Assembly (NCBI GenBank): GCA_018061325.1
Contig: JAGOUJ010000006.1
Coordinates: forward strand, 1-44,342
Direction of reading: 5' to 3'
Origin: Gammaproteobacteria bacterium
GTDB lineage: Bacteria; Pseudomonadota; Gammaproteobacteria; UBA6186; Azoamicaceae
Length of the DNA: 44,342 bases
This document shows, piece by piece, positions 1,902 through 33,241 of the stretch. Under the pieces are notes generated by a model, which saw nothing but the letters and a program-made list of their open reading frames with translations, made no database searches and had not been told where the DNA came from. Numbering within the stretch: the stretch's first letter is position 1; every line of letters begins with the position of its first letter. The position numbers and the translations under genes are program-made.

Positions 1902-3197
1902 ATGCTAAGCATAGGACTCATGAGTGGTACCTCTATGGATGGCATTGATGCGGCACTCCTAGAAACCGATGGTGCCGCCAAGATTAAGCTGCTTGGCCAT
2001 GGTCATCTCGCCTACGAACTGCCCTTTATAAGGCTGTTGAAAACCGCTGAATGGGCGATTCGACAAGCAAAAGGCGATTTAGTGCAGGCTGCGTCTATTT
2101 ATACACAGATCATACCAGACTATTTGAAAAATGCGCTGATGATGAGCGATTCAGAAATACTGGCTTGTATACAATCGATGAAAGATTATTTATCTGCTGA
2201 AGGCAGCATGGATTTTTGTTTAGAAGCTGTGATACAGCATTCTACCAACTTGCATGCTAGGGCTGTACAGCAGTTGTTAGCGCAGACAGGCTATCGTGCT
2301 AACGATATCGATGTGGTGGGTTACCATGGTCAGGCGATGTATCATCAGCCTTTGCATAGCGTATCTATCATCGTGGGTGATGGTCAGGTGCTAGCGAATC
2401 ACTTAAAAATAAAAGTCGTCAATGATTTTCGTAGTGCCGATATTGCATTGGGTGGGCAGGGTGCACCTTTTGCACCCCTGTATCATCAAGCTTTAGTATT
2501 GCATGATCAACCGAGTCCTGCAGTGGTTGTCAATTGTGGGGGTATTGCCAATATTACGGTGATTAGCAGCGCCGATCCAAATGATTTAATCGCCTTTGAT
2601 ACGGGTCCTGGCAATGTTTTAATGGATCAATTAGTGCGACAACGCACAAAAGGCGCAGAAAATATGGATCGGGATGGGCACTATGGTGCCAAGGGTAAGG
2701 TTCATCCAGCCGTTTTAAAGTTATTGTATGAAAAAGCGGTGTTGCAAGCGGGGCGCTCTTATTTGCTAAAGCCCGCCCCAAAATCCTTGGATAGTGGCGA
2801 TCTGCAGTTGATACCCGAATTAGCTACTTTAAGTTTAATGGATGCTTGTGCAACCTTAGCACAGTTTACAGCAGAGACCATTGTGCAGGGTGTAGAAGCA
2901 TTAGATGTGAGCATGCCCTCTCATTGGATTTTGGCAGGGGGCGGTTGGAATAATCCTGTGATTTATAATGCCCTGGCTGCTTGCTTAGCCAGAAAATTAG
3001 GTCGTGCTGCAATAATACTGCATGCCGATGTGATCAACTGGCATAGCCAATCCCTAGAAGCGCAAATGTTTGCTTATTATGCGGTGTGTTGTTTGCAGCA
3101 GAAGCCTATCAGTTTCCCGGGTACTACCGGTGTAGCAAAACCCACCTGTGGGGGTGTCTGCCACGCGCCCCAACAAACAGTGCACACCCTTTTCTAG
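1902..3197 (+). CDS. anmK: Anhydro-N-acetylmuramic acid kinase AnmK
   Basis: AnmK cleaves and phosphorylates 1,6-anhydro-MurNAc to MurNAc-6-phosphate in cytosolic peptidoglycan recycling. The N-terminus MLSIGLMSGTSMDGIDAAL is the family's ATP-binding start. Further family motifs are GYHGQ, NDFRSADIALGGQGAPFAP, NCGGIANIT, FDTGPGN and the terminal PISFPGTTGV. At 431 residues it is about 60 longer than E. coli AnmK; the extra length lies mainly in the region of residues 55-115. Its TAG stop is the first triplet inside a palindromic element copy (3194-3259). With AmpD next door and AmpG at 19236-20477 it forms a coherent recycling set. Confidence 0.95.
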   Translation: MLSIGLMSGTSMDGIDAALLETDGAAKIKLLGHGHLAYELPFIRLLKTAEWAIRQAKGDLVQAASIYTQIIPDYLKNALMMSDSEILACIQSMKDYLSAEGSMDFCLEAVIQHSTNLHARAVQQLLAQTGYRANDIDVVGYHGQAMYHQPLHSVSIIVGDGQVLANHLKIKVVNDFRSADIALGGQGAPFAPLYHQALVLHDQPSPAVVVNCGGIANITVISSADPNDLIAFDTGPGNVLMDQLVRQRTKGAENMDRDGHYGAKGKVHPAVLKLLYEKAVLQAGRSYLLKPAPKSLDSGDLQLIPELATLSLMDACATLAQFTAETIVQGVEALDVSMPSHWILAGGGWNNPVIYNALAACLARKLGRAAIILHADVINWHSQSLEAQMFAYYAVCCLQQKPISFPGTTGVAKPTCGGVCHAPQQTVHTLF

Positions 3198-3259
3198 TAC
3201 ATTGGCCACTAAGTTTTTCCGAATGCCGAAGAGGGGCATCGATTCCAGGGATGTTTAAC
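3194..3259 (+). repeat. Half copy of the ~130-bp palindromic element
   Basis: Starts CTAGTAC, then AAGTTTTTCCGAATG, then GGGGCATCGATTCCAGGGA, matching the left half of the copy at 24016-24145 on the same strand. The similarity stops near the element's centre of symmetry, so this is a half unit. It overlaps the stop codon of anmK. Confidence 0.8.
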
Positions 3260-13280: not shown

Positions 13281-14252
13281 ATGTTGCTAAAAGTCCTTAA
13301 AGGGTTTTTTTTTATAGTGCCCGCTGCATTAGTGTTGCTCTTGTTGCATACCCTCTATTTTCTGGATGTCTCCATTCAACCTGCGCCTGAACTGAGCGAA
13401 GCACAGAAATCCGTTAATATACATTTAATATCCTATGCAGATGGGCCAGAGGTTTATCGACAAAATCAAAATATTTTGGCGATGTCGGCCATTCATCGTG
13501 GTGTAGATTTTATCTACAACTACCGGCGTGATCATATTGATCCAGCTTTTATTCGTGCAAACCCTATTATGAGTAACCCAACAGGCGCGGGCTATTGGCT
13601 TTGGAAATCTTATCTGATCTTGGAAGCCCTTAAAAAGATCCCCGAGGGTGATATCCTCATTTATGCCGATACAGGTTTGTTAATTCGCCAAGATATTAGG
13701 GACTATTTTACAAAAGGACTGGGGGATAAAGATATTCTATTGTTTGCCTATAATCCTCAAGAGTATAAATTAGCTGCTACAATCGCGAGTGGGGATGTGT
13801 TTGACGCGCTTCATTGTCGTGATGACCACTGTCGTTATGGGCATCATGTGTGGGCCGGGATCTTAGTATTGCGCAATTCAAAGCAGAGTCGCAGTTTTAT
13901 TGAGCAATGGCTTCGTTTAGGCAAAAATACCGATTTGCTCACAGGTCATAAACAACACTCACTGCCTTTCCCTGAATTTGAATTTCATCAACATGATGAA
14001 GGGTTATTAAGTGTATTGGCTGCAAAACAGGCAGTGCTTGTGAATTTTATTCCCATGGATCGTACGTTTTTCATCCATATTAATATGCATCGTCGCAAGA
14101 GTAATCGTCGTTCTTTACTAGGATGTTTTTCGATTCAGTACGGTGGTATTGAACGCAGAATATTAAATGCCCCTATGACGCAGACAATACAGCGTTATTT
14201 GGCAAAGATTTTGGATAAAAGTAAAAATATTAAAGTGAACCCAGGGTATTAG
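13281..14252 (+). CDS. Membrane-anchored putative glycosyltransferase
   Basis: The 323-residue protein has an N-terminal transmembrane anchor (about residues 4-27) and then a soluble domain with GAGYWLWKSYLILEALKKIP and ILIYADTG. This is the WxWK-plus-DxG arrangement of a family of nucleotide-sugar glycosyltransferases of the GT-A fold. Other landmarks are HHVWAGILVLRNS and HQHDEGLLSVL. Likely job: adding a sugar to a surface glycan. A GTG at 13269 is an alternative start; ATG 13281 is preferred because AGGG then has workable spacing. The stop TAG lies in the first triplets of a palindromic element (14249-14384), so the native C-terminus may have been trimmed. Confidence 0.6.
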   Translation: MLLKVLKGFFFIVPAALVLLLLHTLYFLDVSIQPAPELSEAQKSVNIHLISYADGPEVYRQNQNILAMSAIHRGVDFIYNYRRDHIDPAFIRANPIMSNPTGAGYWLWKSYLILEALKKIPEGDILIYADTGLLIRQDIRDYFTKGLGDKDILLFAYNPQEYKLAATIASGDVFDALHCRDDHCRYGHHVWAGILVLRNSKQSRSFIEQWLRLGKNTDLLTGHKQHSLPFPEFEFHQHDEGLLSVLAAKQAVLVNFIPMDRTFFIHINMHRRKSNRRSLLGCFSIQYGGIERRILNAPMTQTIQRYLAKILDKSKNIKVNPGY

Positions 14253-14384
14253 TACCTCGTTGAATAAGTTTTTCCGAATGGCATTCGGGGACATACATCC
14301 CTGTATTCGACGATTTACCATCCCTGGAATCGACGCCCCTTATGCCTATTCGGGAAAACTTGTTTATGTTTAACAGACTACTAG
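14249..14384 (+). repeat. Full copy of the ~130-bp palindromic element
   Basis: Bounded by TTAGTAC and CTACTAG. Inside are AAGTTTTTCCGAATG and, inverted near the other end, CGGGAAAACTT, with a centre of CATCCCTGTATTCGACGATT and CATCCCTGGAATCGACGCC. The core of about 100 bp matches the reverse complement of the copy at 24016-24145 with only scattered differences. It fills the gap between the glycosyltransferase gene and rluD and supplies the former's stop codon. Confidence 0.85.
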
Positions 14385-23503: not shown

Positions 23504-23540
23504 CCCCCACCCTAGCCCTCCCCCGCTAAGCGGGGGAGGG
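23504..23540. repeat. GC-rich palindromic repeat between convergent pepN and PAP2 genes
   Basis: CCCTCCCCCGC and GCGGGGGAGGG form a perfect 11-bp stem with a TAA loop at 23516-23540, preceded by CCCCCACCCTAG. Related to the repeat in the nhaA 3' end. It probably limits read-through between the convergent genes, though there is no long U-run. Confidence 0.75.
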
Positions 23541-23570: not shown

Positions 23571-24416
23571 TTAAGAAATTCTCTTAGATTCAGTTGGGGT
23601 GGGAAGCTTCCAATAATACAGCAGCATGAGCGTCCACACAAAGCAAACAAGCGCTAAAAGTGCGGAGAATACGGTATCACTCATCCAGTGGGCACCACTG
23701 AATAACCGTGGTAGACACAGAAAAAGCGCAAAGATAATACCCAAAATACCGATGCGTTTAGGTGAAAGATAGAGGCTAAATAAAGCCCAATAGAGTAAGG
23801 CAAAGGCATGTCCACTCGGAAAGCAATTTTGGGAGGCATCTTTGATATTGGGATCTTGCAACAGGGTGGATAATCGAAAACTGGGTTCTAAAACCAAAGA
23901 AGGTGAATAGCGTCTGAGGTTTAGAAACCCATGAAAAAAATATTCTTGCAAACAAAAAACCAACTCAAAACAAATCCAAAAATAAATAAAGCCTTTGATA
24001 CATTGCATGCGTAGTCTAGTAGTGTGTCCAAAAAGTTTTTCCGAGTGTGCATGAGGGGCGTCGATTCCAGGGAGGGTTAATCGTCGAATACAGGGATGTA
24101 TGTTCCCGAGTGCCATTCGGAAAAACTTCGTTGATGAGCTACTAGGGTTTTTAGTTTGGTAGATCGCCCACAGATTAAAACAGCAAGCGAGTAGCAAGTT
24201 GTAGCTGGTTTCTCGACGATGGTTCAGCATACCCCACACGCTTTGCCAAGCGGGATTGTGCGATAAACTACCATTGAGTAGATAAAAAATAGCCTTATCA
24301 CTTTTGATACACAGTACGTGGGTGAGTGGATTAAACCACAGGAACAGTGCGAAAAAAAATAATAGATGGCTTATCAGCCACAAACGGAGGGGCCATGAAG
24401 GGCGCACTGCGCTCAT
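23571..24416 (-). CDS. PAP2-family membrane phosphatase carrying an in-frame palindromic element
   Basis: A 281-residue integral membrane phosphatase of the type-2 phosphatidic acid phosphatase superfamily. Active-site blocks are FPSGHAFALLYW and RLFSGAHWMSDTVFS, with the catalytic histidines in SGH and AHW. Such enzymes dephosphorylate undecaprenyl diphosphate, lipid A or phosphatidylglycerophosphate; the substrate is not decidable here. Co-operonic lpxH hints at lipid A. Residues 91-134 (from PSSSSTKFF through EKLFGHTTR) are encoded by a ~130-bp palindromic element in an open frame, between hydrophobic segments. Removing it would leave a compact protein of about 237 residues. The start overlaps the lpxH stop by 4 nt. 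Confidence 0.82.
   Translation of the reverse strand: MSAVRPSWPLRLWLISHLLFFFALFLWFNPLTHVLCIKSDKAIFYLLNGSLSHNPAWQSVWGMLNHRRETSYNLLLACCFNLWAIYQTKNPSSSSTKFFRMALGNIHPCIRRLTLPGIDAPHAHSEKLFGHTTRLRMQCIKGFIYFWICFELVFCLQEYFFHGFLNLRRYSPSLVLEPSFRLSTLLQDPNIKDASQNCFPSGHAFALLYWALFSLYLSPKRIGILGIIFALFLCLPRLFSGAHWMSDTVFSALLALVCFVWTLMLLYYWKLPTPTESKRIS
24016..24145 (-). repeat. Full palindromic element inserted in frame in the PAP2 gene
   Basis: Terminal CTAGTAG and CTACTAG are perfect inverted 7-mers, and AAGTTTTTCCGA recurs inverted about 15 nt inside each end. The minus strand matches 14249-14384 closely through the core. The gene's frame crosses all 130 bp without a stop. Confidence 0.88.
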
Positions 24417-25632: not shown

Positions 25633-25725
25633 GCATGCATCCTTCAACAGTGCGGGCTTATACACGCCCCAAAACGCCAGTCTATCATACGTGTATTATG
25701 GCTGCCAATTGTGTACAATCGCCCT
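25633..25725. promoter_or_regulatory. Divergent ppiB / gltX promoter region
   Basis: Short gap with a TACAAT hexamer at 25714-25719, six nt before the gltX ATG, and a TATTAT at 25695-25700. No Shine-Dalgarno sequence precedes gltX. Confidence 0.3.
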
Positions 25726-27183
25726 ATGAATCTTACTGTTAAAACACGTTTTGCGCCCAGTCCTACTGGACTTATGCATTTTGGGAATGTTCGCACAGCC
25801 CTTTTTAATTATTTGTATGCTAAACGCTTTCAAGGACAGCTATTGCTGCGGGTAGAAGATACCGATGGAAAGCGTTCAACCACGGACTATGCAGCGTCGC
25901 TATTAAAGGATCTGCGGTGGCTTGGATTAGTCTGGGATGAAGGGCCTTATTATCAATCAGAGCGTCAGACTGTGTATGAACAGTATTATCTGCAATTACA
26001 GGCGGAACATCGACTCTATCCTTGTTTTTGCACGGAAGAACAGTTAGCCCTTAGTCGCAAGGTACAAATGGCTGCTCACCAAGCGCCTCGTTATACGGGC
26101 AAGTGTCGGGGATTGAGTGCTGAGGCTGTACGGGCCAAGCAGGCTTTGGGTGAACCCTTTGTATTGCGTTTCGAGGTACCCAAAGGTGTAGCACTCAATT
26201 TTAACGATTTAATCAAGGGCGAGCAGCATTTTGATTCCGATGCAATTGGCGATTTTATTGTGCGCCGTGCAGATAGTAGTGCTTCTTTTATTTTTTGTAA
26301 TGCGGTGGATGATGCGTTGATGGGGGTTACCCATGCCTTGCGTGGGGATGATCACCTGAGCAATACGCCCCGTCAGCTACTTATTTTAGAAGCATTGGGT
26401 TTAGCAAAGCCAGCCTATGGGCATTTTCCCACTATTTTAGGACCTGATCATAGCCCGCTTTCTAAGCGCAATGGCAGTCGAGATATCCAGACCTTAATCG
26501 CAGAAGGTTATTGGCCTTCTGCGATTGTGAATTATCTAGCACGTTTGGGGCACTATGATCCCGATATGACACTTTTATCCTTGGAAACGTTGAGCGCGCA
26601 TTTTGATTTAGCCCATATTAGTCATTCACCCGCGCATTATAATGAGGCGCAGTTGCTCTATTGGCAGAAATTGAGTATGCAGCACGCGAGTGTCGAGGAT
26701 TGTTGGCGTGTTTTAGAACCGTGGGTGGGTTCTGTGGTGCCTGAAGCACAGCGAGACGCTTTTGTGGCTTTAGTGCAGCCTAATCTGGTGTTACCCAAGG
26801 ACGCAGTGCCTTTAGCAGAAGCACTTTTTCTACCAGCGTCGCTGGTTCCTCACTATTCAGCCAGCGATCAAGCCTTGCTGAGCACGATAGGTGGGGAGGC
26901 GCTTGTACAGGGATTGGCGTTATTGAAGCAGAATCCAGAACAAACCTTGTCTGATTGGGTGAATGTTTGGCATCAGCACAGTGGACTGCAAAAAAAATCG
27001 TTGTATGCGGCATTACGGGTGGCTTTGATGGGAATGACCAGCGGTCCTGCTTTGCAGCCTTTGCTCGATCTGCTAGGTCCTGAAAAAATTGTACAGCGTT
27101 TATCAGAAGCCATAGATTATGCATCGCAAAGACCCAATGCTCCCTTACTCCCCGCTGCGCGGGACCCTAAAAACCAAGGATGA
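25726..27183 (+). CDS. gltX: Glutamyl-tRNA synthetase, second-type (GltX2-like)
   Basis: A class I synthetase that attaches glutamate to tRNA. The HIGH signature is HFGN (residues 18-21 in GLMHFGNVRTALF) and the KMSKS loop is SPLSKRNG. DGKRSTTDYAASLLKDLRWLGL, ALRGDDHLSNTPRQ and LGHYDPD support the family. The sequence style resembles the GltX2 branch found alongside a second copy in several proteobacteria, some of which prefer tRNA-Gln. Start at ATG 25726 (MNLTVKTRFAPSPTG); a GTG at 25711 is in frame. The last about 12 residues (PLLPAARDPKNQG) come from a palindromic repeat. cysS follows after 6 nt. Confidence 0.92.
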   Translation: MNLTVKTRFAPSPTGLMHFGNVRTALFNYLYAKRFQGQLLLRVEDTDGKRSTTDYAASLLKDLRWLGLVWDEGPYYQSERQTVYEQYYLQLQAEHRLYPCFCTEEQLALSRKVQMAAHQAPRYTGKCRGLSAEAVRAKQALGEPFVLRFEVPKGVALNFNDLIKGEQHFDSDAIGDFIVRRADSSASFIFCNAVDDALMGVTHALRGDDHLSNTPRQLLILEALGLAKPAYGHFPTILGPDHSPLSKRNGSRDIQTLIAEGYWPSAIVNYLARLGHYDPDMTLLSLETLSAHFDLAHISHSPAHYNEAQLLYWQKLSMQHASVEDCWRVLEPWVGSVVPEAQRDAFVALVQPNLVLPKDAVPLAEALFLPASLVPHYSASDQALLSTIGGEALVQGLALLKQNPEQTLSDWVNVWHQHSGLQKKSLYAALRVALMGMTSGPALQPLLDLLGPEKIVQRLSEAIDYASQRPNAPLLPAARDPKNQG

Positions 27184-32092: not shown

Positions 32093-33241
32093 TCAAAATA
32101 CCCGTGTGGGGATTTTGTGGGGATTACCTTCATCATTGGCCCCATTGTTTGACAGCAGGGGTTTGTGGTTTGGGCGTAGTAGAGTTAATACAACGCCTTG
32201 GCGACCTTCTGTACACACTTTGTTAGCAGAATCGTAAAGGTTATGTAGTTCGGCAGCAGAGTAATGAGTGGTGATCCGTGAGGATTTATGACCCAATAGA
32301 TCTTGTCGATCTTCAAAACCTACACCAGCAGCACGTAAGCGTCGACCAAAGGTATGCTTTAAGTCATGGACTCGAACATGAGGAAGGCCTGCTCTATCAC
32401 GAGCCTTGATCCAAGCGCTATTTAGCATATCCTGAAGGGGTTTATTTTTGTAAATAAACACGTACTCAGGATGTTGTCCTCGTTGTGCTTCAATGACTGA
32501 ACTTGCAATGGGATTACAAACCACTAAACGATCTTGACCATTTTTAACAAAACTACCCGGTACAATAAAGACCAGCAGTTCTGGCATTTCTGCCACATTC
32601 ACTTCCCATGCCCATCGAAGCTCACAGATTTCCCGAACCCTGCATCCAGTATTTACAGCAAACAACGCCATATTTTTAAGATGTAAGGGTAGCTCAGCAA
32701 AAAGCCGATGTTGTTCTTCCCAGGTTAAGGGATAGGGCTTTTGCCTATCGTGTTCTGGTAAGAGTTCAATGGCAGGCGCATGTTCTAACCAGGTTTTTCC
32801 ATGGTCATCTCTCCATTTATAAGCAGCCAGCCTTAAAATATGGCGTACAATTTGCAAACCATGATTAATGGTTCTTGTTTTAACGCCTTCTTTTTTTCTG
32901 GCTTCAATAAACGGTTCCAATGTTCCCATATGAATGGCCTCTAAAGTCAAATTTCCAATGAAAGGTGTCAGCTTTTTAATCAGTAATGCATCATCACTGA
33001 TACTGCGCTTATGCTGATTTTTCATCAAAAAGTGAATAGCAGCCTCCTTAAATAATCTTTTGACACGTACCCCGTGGATCTTAGACTGTCTTAGTTCTTC
33101 GATTTTTCGCACCAGGAAGCTTTCCGCTTCTTGGAGAGAACTTGTTCCAGTACTTCCTCTAAGGCGTTGTCCAAAGATTTGTTTTTCAACGTGCCAGATG
33201 CCACCGCGTTTGCGTAACCCTGGCGTGATTTTGCGTCCCAT
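32093..33241 (-). CDS. Tyrosine recombinase (integrase 1, tRNA-proximal)
   Basis: A 382-residue phage-type integrase. An N-terminal arm-binding region (GLRKRGGIWHVEKQIFGQRLR) is followed by a SAM-like core-binding domain and a catalytic domain. Catalytic landmarks: Arg in NTGCRVREICELRW, beta-hairpin Lys in SFVKNGQDR, the box HDLKHTFGRR (Lys replacing the usual second Arg), LLGHKSSR and the nucleophile Tyr in ITTHYSA. It lies 59 nt from tRNA-His and probably integrates the element there. Its first 151 nt overlap the excisionase gene upstream in another frame. Clearly paralogous to the integrase at 33465-34583. Confidence 0.9.
   Translation of the reverse strand: MGRKITPGLRKRGGIWHVEKQIFGQRLRGSTGTSSLQEAESFLVRKIEELRQSKIHGVRVKRLFKEAAIHFLMKNQHKRSISDDALLIKKLTPFIGNLTLEAIHMGTLEPFIEARKKEGVKTRTINHGLQIVRHILRLAAYKWRDDHGKTWLEHAPAIELLPEHDRQKPYPLTWEEQHRLFAELPLHLKNMALFAVNTGCRVREICELRWAWEVNVAEMPELLVFIVPGSFVKNGQDRLVVCNPIASSVIEAQRGQHPEYVFIYKNKPLQDMLNSAWIKARDRAGLPHVRVHDLKHTFGRRLRAAGVGFEDRQDLLGHKSSRITTHYSAAELHNLYDSANKVCTEGRQGVVLTLLRPNHKPLLSNNGANDEGNPHKIPTRVF

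Follow-up and report, generated by a model that had tools for sequence, protein, structure and literature searches.

The best-known in-frame palindromic elements are those of Rickettsia. The locus described here raises the question of how an element of this kind came to lie within the open reading frame of a membrane phosphatase gene in a gammaproteobacterium, and what accounts for its persistence there. The window (the whole stretch of DNA analysed, 44,342 nucleotides) was compared with other genomes, in particular with that of a sister species (termed G002; the genome to which the window belongs is termed G000). The explanation that we regard as very probable is that this feature belongs to a family of dispersed palindromes and forms an in-frame insert of 42 residues; it is inferred to be a MITE-like passenger with a core that acts as an RNA structure bound by CsrA.

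Insertion of a palindromic element in the PAP2 gene

The host gene (positions 23571–24416, minus strand) encodes a PAP2-superfamily membrane phosphatase of 281 aa, in which the Pfam domain PF01569 was identified at residues 186–267 (E=2e-12, 47.4 bits against a cut-off of 27.2) and in which the catalytic blocks FPSGH and SGAHW were both intact in the protein alignment. The element occupies positions 24016–24145, including a 4 bp target at both ends, and is given on the plus strand, on which its conserved core reads; its limits were set from the BLAST-defined family, from the empty site in G002 and from an alignment of element copies (A1). Comparison of the empty and filled sites placed the left and right copies of the target (YTAR) at positions 24016–24019 and 24142–24145, both being CTAG here and the empty orthologue having TTAG. 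The empty site in the G002 PAP2 orthologue reads GCATACGTAATTTAGGATTTTT and the filled site GCATGCGTAGTCTAG...CTAGGGTTTTT, a net gain of 126 nt or 42 codons. The added residues (SSSSTKFFRMALGNIHPCIRRLTLPGIDAPHAHSEKLFGHTT) were assigned by protein alignment (A2) and translation to codons 92–133 (positions 24018–24143, minus strand), and five aligned PAP2 relatives (43–86 % identical) lacked all 42 of them, being contiguous at the site. The palindrome is a strong one, the RNA fold of positions 24016–24145 (plus strand) having a free energy of −57.2 kcal/mol (z=−6.5), with none of 200 shuffled sequences as stable.

The initial annotation had proposed an in-frame insertion of a dispersed palindromic element in this gene, and both the empty site and the repeat family described below support it. 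The frame was found to run without a stop across positions 24016–24145, as had been stated, and the insert does lie between two hydrophobic segments, far from the SGH and AHW blocks. The original estimate of about 44 residues (91–134) was right to within one residue, the real insert being 42 residues (92–133), and their description as mostly polar holds only mildly (mean Kyte–Doolittle value −0.25). It had also been supposed that duplicated or trimmed bases restored the frame; no trimming was needed, as the length of 130 bp counts the 4 bp target twice and the net insert relative to the G002 site, 126 nt, keeps the frame without trimming. Of the checks that had been suggested, alignment with insert-free orthologues gave the contiguous relatives noted above, and structure modelling of residues 91–134 with AlphaFold2 returned pLDDT values below 50 at residues 92–131, flanked by helices at residues 68–87 and 130–164. 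The insert is thus predicted to be a disordered or unstructured loop away from the active site, in a model which rests on a shallow alignment of six sequences and has a mean pLDDT of 64.

The PAP2 sequence flanking the insert is under purifying selection (dN/dS 0.14, dS 0.51, in comparison with the G002 orthologue). Values were also obtained for the neighbouring genes (0.10 for the LpxH-like gene, 0.06 for PpiB and 0.12 for PepN) and for the other genes that host the element (0.13–0.29). These ratios span all the time since the two species separated and not only the time since insertion.

A dispersed repeat family in two sister species

BLAST searches with the element gave 33 matches in the 1.28 Mb genome of G000, about 20 of them long, with the closest other copies 89–93 % identical (E down to 4.5e-43), and 33 matches in G002. 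No match was obtained by BLAST in nine other genomes of the bacterial family, whilst the G002 copies were also present in a deposited metagenome-assembled genome (CAMCTX01, Legionella sp.). An exact 20-mer of the core, sought in about 85,000 species genomes, was absent beyond the sister species except for one match in a Deltaproteobacteria metagenome-assembled genome (L081), which was rejected as a chance match since no element was present there. The window itself contains a second long copy, which is intergenic (positions 14249–14378, minus strand; BLAST and A1), and a truncated copy comprising the left half (positions 3194–3258, plus strand), the G002 orthologue of which (L056) is full length as judged by comparison of the orthologous sites. 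Alignment A1 comprised 39 near-full copies.

Orthologous sites in G000 and G002 were located through their flanking sequences and then compared, which yielded six clean pairs of empty and filled sites: PAP2, GltX (L053/L156), L118/L153, L038/L094, L116/L152 and L048/L091, the filled copy of the last pair being internally deleted. All six empty sites contained YTAR (TTAG, CTAG, CTAG, CTAA, CTAA and TTAG), and in having clean empty sites and a short duplicated target the element behaves as expected of a MITE. In the left target copy, the first base (the outer Y) differed from the empty orthologue by a C/T transition in five of the six pairs, which is above the expectation from flank divergence, and the outer target bases were not always equal among the left copy, the right copy and the empty site. 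The family, consisting of 126 bp plus a duplicated YTAR target, is present in both sister species, the PAP2 insertion being found in this species only. At many further loci both species carry the insertion, half of the element having since been lost from one of them; such losses fit the instability of palindromes.

The orientation of the intergenic copies relative to genes showed no clear bias, so that orientation provides no clear sign of RNA function. At two further loci (L101 and L102; contigs C18 and C7 of G002), sites that carry the element in G000 carry other short repeat-like sequences in G002 (CGTCATTGCGAGC...GCGAAGCAATCC and CCCTCATCCGGGGC..., respectively), and this replacement by different repeats suggests insertion hot spots.

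Element architecture and the conserved double-hairpin core

The palindrome consists of a left stem arm (the AAGTTTTTCCGAGTGTGCAT region, positions 24034–24053, plus strand) pairing with a right arm (the GTGCCATTCGGAAAAACTT region, positions 24112–24133, plus strand), with a conserved core at its tip (positions 24055–24110, plus strand). This core, which the initial annotation had missed although its reading of the element was otherwise supported, comprises two hairpins on the plus strand. The apex of hairpin 1, CC[AGGGAG]GG (positions 24067–24076), carries an ANGGAN hexaloop closed by a C-G pair, and hairpin 2, ATAC[AGGGAT]GTAT (positions 24088–24101), carries the second; its sequence AUACAGGGAUGU matches the CsrA SELEX consensus RUACARGGAUGU at 12 of 12 positions. 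The loop and closing pair were intact in 37 of the 39 copies for hairpin 1, in 36 for hairpin 2 and in 35 for both together, and the variation noted in loop 1 among copies lay at N2 and N6.

Conservation was unevenly distributed along the element: mean column identity reached 94 % in the core, fell to 89 % for the inner stem and 78 % for the right spacer, and was 60–65 % in the outer arms and left spacer. The stems covaried: changes on both sides were present in 17 of 29 pairs over the 39 copies, compared with 7.1 in shuffled alignments, none of 500 of which reached as high a value. One-sided departures from pairing on the core strand were G-U rather than A-C in 58 versus 14 cells and, counted by column, in 15 versus 3 (P=0.0075); with each wobble type counted once per column as a distinct event, the figures were 17 versus 8 (P=0.11). 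These data suggest that the core strand acts single-stranded. When the whole element was folded, the minimum-energy structure was a single long hairpin in which both loops are partly paired; the fold with two loops was 3.7 kcal/mol less favourable.

Related cores in other Gammaproteobacteria and a possible link to CsrA

Among the 368 genomes examined, five further gammaproteobacterial ones contained the pattern CCAGGGANGG-N(8–24)-TACAGGGATGTA, a reversed control giving no match; in those five genomes the pattern was mostly flanked by long inverted arms whose sequences were unrelated. A covariance model (R1) was also built from the core; it matched the element at positions 24054–24110 (E=1.1e-21) and identified matches in 31 of the 368 Gammaproteobacteria genomes, G000 included, at E≤1e-3 per genome. 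The R1 E-values come from a short calibration and, as the seeds were chosen by a pattern containing AGGGA, loop conservation among the R1 matches is partly by construction. All 25 loci compared, from 25 genomes, possessed two ANGGAN hexaloops on differing paired stems, and 20 of them had inverted arms that matched at 14 or more bases.

One of the related loci (L172, genome G064) scored 38.3 bits against the Rfam family RF01731 (TwoAYGGAY), under its cut-off of 43 (E=7e-5 in a 281-base search); this family belongs to clan CL00106, as does CsrB. The element copy in the window had no Rfam match up to E=10, and the window as a whole yielded only tRNAs. The link to TwoAYGGAY consequently runs through R1 and an intermediate sequence and, being below the Rfam threshold, membership is not claimed for the window copy. 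The resemblance lies in the long outer helix and the two tip hairpins with A-N-GGA-N loops; unlike the RNA family, the element recurs as dispersed copies, some with empty orthologous sites and some inserted in frame in proteins. The consensus of a second family, Ysr224 (RF02770), represents this type of tip in antisense. Weak matches to it were found on the opposite strand at seven of 10 core loci, all under the curated cut-off of 70 bits, and none was found in the window element. The element, the core and the related tip were also sought in plasmids, phages and viral contigs; the element had no match there, and nine Pantoea plasmids matched 38 nt of the related tip. A literature search with the letters of the core found nothing relevant.

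The CsrA SELEX consensus is RUACARGGAUGU, and ANGGAN hexaloops are contacted by RsmE/CsrA (PMC7652899); CsrA binding has also been proposed for TwoAYGGAY (PMC4333381). G000 and G002 each contain one csrA gene, both of which look intact. From these comparisons it is inferred that the core works as a single-stranded nucleic acid, most likely an RNA bound by CsrA in the manner proposed for TwoAYGGAY, there being no binding or expression data. The PAP2 copy is a separate matter: its motif strand runs antisense to the PAP2 transcript, and the sense strand of the gene contains no A-N-GGA. The message is therefore not expected to gain a CsrA site from this copy, which is best read as a passive passenger.

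A possible explanation, although in our judgement a rather doubtful one, is that the element is purely a DNA-level MITE whose core is kept by a transposase or by a host DNA-binding protein acting on the duplex or on single-stranded hairpins, with no role for RNA or CsrA. The dispersed copies, TSD-like YTAR ends and clean empty sites would all be expected of such an element, the absence of orientation bias relative to genes agrees with it, and so does the preference for the long-hairpin fold. A DDE transposase would, however, predict conserved ends, yet the ends and arms are the most variable parts, and the covarying stems with constant ANGGAN loops in distant genomes are not readily accommodated. 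The G-U versus A-C asymmetry of the core strand also argues against it, though a single-strand-acting HUH enzyme could give the same pattern; Y1 transposases were not found in G002. We retain the interpretation of the element as a MITE-like passenger with an inferred RNA core.

Mobility and comparison with known repeat families

The element would be a non-autonomous, MITE-like passenger, and its mobility is inferred to depend on an unidentified enzyme. Candidate mobilisers were sought among the IS630-type, IS4/IS5-type and Y1 families, and no autonomous transposon with element-like ends was identified in these. An IS630-like fragment in G000 had ends different from those of the element, DDE_Tnp_1 was absent, and Y1 transposases were represented only by two fragments in G000 and by none in G002, leaving all three types unsupported as the mobiliser.

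Rickettsia palindromic elements are palindromes of 105–146 bp that form long stem–loops and are dispersed, both in frame in many conserved genes and in intergenic regions (Ogata et al. 2000, 2002; reviewed in PMC2229807). The element shares with them the dispersed long-stem–loop palindrome and the in-frame position in several conserved protein genes, but differs in being gammaproteobacterial and in its conserved double-ANGGAN core; membership of the RPE/WPE families by sequence was not established (only exact core letters were compared, and there was no plasmid match). The enterobacterial MITEs ERIC/IRU/RU-1 (127 bp) and YPAL/RU-2 (168 bp) also have reading frames fused to conserved genes (PMC2759123, PMC2229807). 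Compared from the literature and for architecture only, the ERIC/RU elements are similar in size, palindromic, flanked by 5′TA3′ termini (ERIC), gammaproteobacterial and fused in frame; here a high fraction of copies lies in housekeeping proteins, and a sequence relation was not established. The REP elements of the GTAG and CGTC superfamilies are 20–40 bp long and carry the GTAG or CGTC tag at one of their ends (PMC3733652). They too are palindromic and in part intragenic, but the present element differs from REP/RAYT systems in its length of 126 bp, its YTAG/CTAR ends, the lack of a REP tag and the lack of a Y1 match in G002. The element acts like the Rickettsia or ERIC/RU elements, no sequence relation to them having been established within the limits of the searches run. 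The suggestion that persistence of the Rickettsia type occurs here in a gammaproteobacterium holds for both mode and lineage, the sister genome being deposited as one of Legionella, but it is not without precedent, in-frame ERIC/RU copies having been described in Gammaproteobacteria (PMC2759123).

Copies within other proteins

In-frame copies were found in G000 in PAP2, an acyl-CoA-dehydrogenase-like (FadE-like) gene, ComF, MnmE and TsaE, and in G002 in a fused CcmA–CcmB ORF, Pgk, GltX, ZnuA (N-terminus), MvaD (C-terminus), MnmE and a HAD-like ORF. Beyond PAP2 this represents about ten host proteins over the two species (eleven further copies, MnmE being a host in both). Host gene names were read from the translations, with a Pfam check only for PAP2 and its neighbours. 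Empty orthologous sites among the protein hosts were demonstrated for PAP2 and GltX, and the core lies in sense orientation in ComF, GltX, ZnuA, the FadE-like gene and the G000 MnmE gene.

Several observations were made at individual host loci. The element at the ccmA/ccmB junction (L049, contig C19 of G002) gives a single open frame of 471 codons through both genes, and the insert-bearing pgk frame (L052, contig C41 of G002) runs on without a stop into pyruvate kinase, an apparent pgk–pyk fusion. Comparison of positions 25711–27183 of the window with L053 revealed two distinct gltX-like genes, the palindrome-bearing G002 copy being the other paralogue.

All 12 in-gene copies were 130 nt long, compared with 12 of the 27 others (P=0.0007, MnmE counted in both species). 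The peptide frames used were +0, +2, −0 and −2, which are those most often open among the copies, frame −2 being used by PAP2 alone. The consensus element has three open frames in comparison with 0.63 expected (P=0.027), which is weak evidence for open frames as an adapted trait. The element persists in PAP2 for three reasons: full-length copies lengthen a gene by a multiple of three bases, four of its six frames tend to be open, and the peptide gained is predicted to be an unstructured loop remote from the active site. An insertion that falls in frame within a surface loop would be nearly neutral and could survive, whilst out-of-frame landings in genes would be purged.

These results bear on whether PAP2 has simply been inactivated, the open frame then being no more than a remnant kept by chance in a young pseudogene. 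With four frames open, chance alone would hit one of them fairly often, and the insertion is recent, being absent from G002, but we consider inactivation improbable given that the SGH and AHW motifs are intact with a dN/dS of 0.14, that all in-gene copies are of frame-keeping length, and that eleven further copies lie in frame, several in usually essential genes (the single-copy status of Pgk, GltX and MnmE being unchecked).

The mnmE insertion is common to both species (L043, positions 764–893; L067, positions 1484–1613) and both frames are open. The arms have the same orientation in the G000 and G002 copies (32 of 35 and 32 of 32 positions), but the 63 nt core is inverted (62 of 63 identical in the inverted register), the dS of MnmE between the species being 0.52. 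The MnmE orthologues therefore carry different peptides, so that protein selection cannot explain the conservation, whereas a recent core exchange or a nucleic-acid constraint can. Recruitment of the inserted peptide to a protein function, as a domesticated loop, might be read from the frames kept open in PAP2 and several other proteins; it is nevertheless very unlikely, as the use of four frames in both orientations gives unrelated peptides, the MnmE inversion gives different peptides at the same place, and the PAP2 insert is predicted to be disordered.

The PAP2 junctions rest on the assembly, the genome being in 67 contigs, and multi-copy repeats can mislead the assembly of a metagenome-derived contig. 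An artefact of this kind is scarcely credible, however, as the PAP2 copy is unique (next best 89–93 % identical) and has unique orthologous flanks on both sides with the frame kept, and similar copies are present independently in G002. The remaining idea, that the 42 residues are ancestral in PAP2 and were lost in its relatives, which the initial annotation had named as the outcome that would overturn its reading, found no supporting point and can be set aside with near certainty: it is refuted by the empty sites and by the dispersal of the same sequence family at unrelated loci of the same genome, and it fails on the absence of the residues from all five aligned relatives.

With the PAP2 feature thus taken as a MITE-like, in-frame passenger, a wider hypothesis can be offered tentatively, and with somewhat less than even confidence: that a large gammaproteobacterial superfamily of mobile palindromes carries CsrA-binding double hairpins of the TwoAYGGAY type as its payload, with arms that turn over freely and a tip that is kept by RNA function, with copies spreading CsrA sites or decoys, including into the coding frames of housekeeping genes, and with a core that can invert within an open frame, as in MnmE. 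If this is true, the sites of a global RNA regulator have been spread by selfish DNA, an idea that is now testable. These gammaproteobacterial in-frame palindromes are hosted by about eleven proteins in the two sister species, Pgk, GltX, MnmE and TsaE among them; as orthologous empty sites are available for several copies, the tolerance of in-frame inserts can be tested directly, and the conserved tip connects a mobile repeat with CsrA and with TwoAYGGAY, an RNA family that is still unexplained.

Other repeats in the window

A perfect palindrome of a different sequence (CCCTCCCCCGCTAAGCGGGGGAGGG) is present at positions 23516–23540, directly past pepN and convergent with PAP2, and was not repeated among the loci examined. 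The window also contains two pairs of diverged direct repeats, at positions 32192–32378/33534–33720 and 35877–35966/36000–36089 (73 and 77 % identical, respectively).
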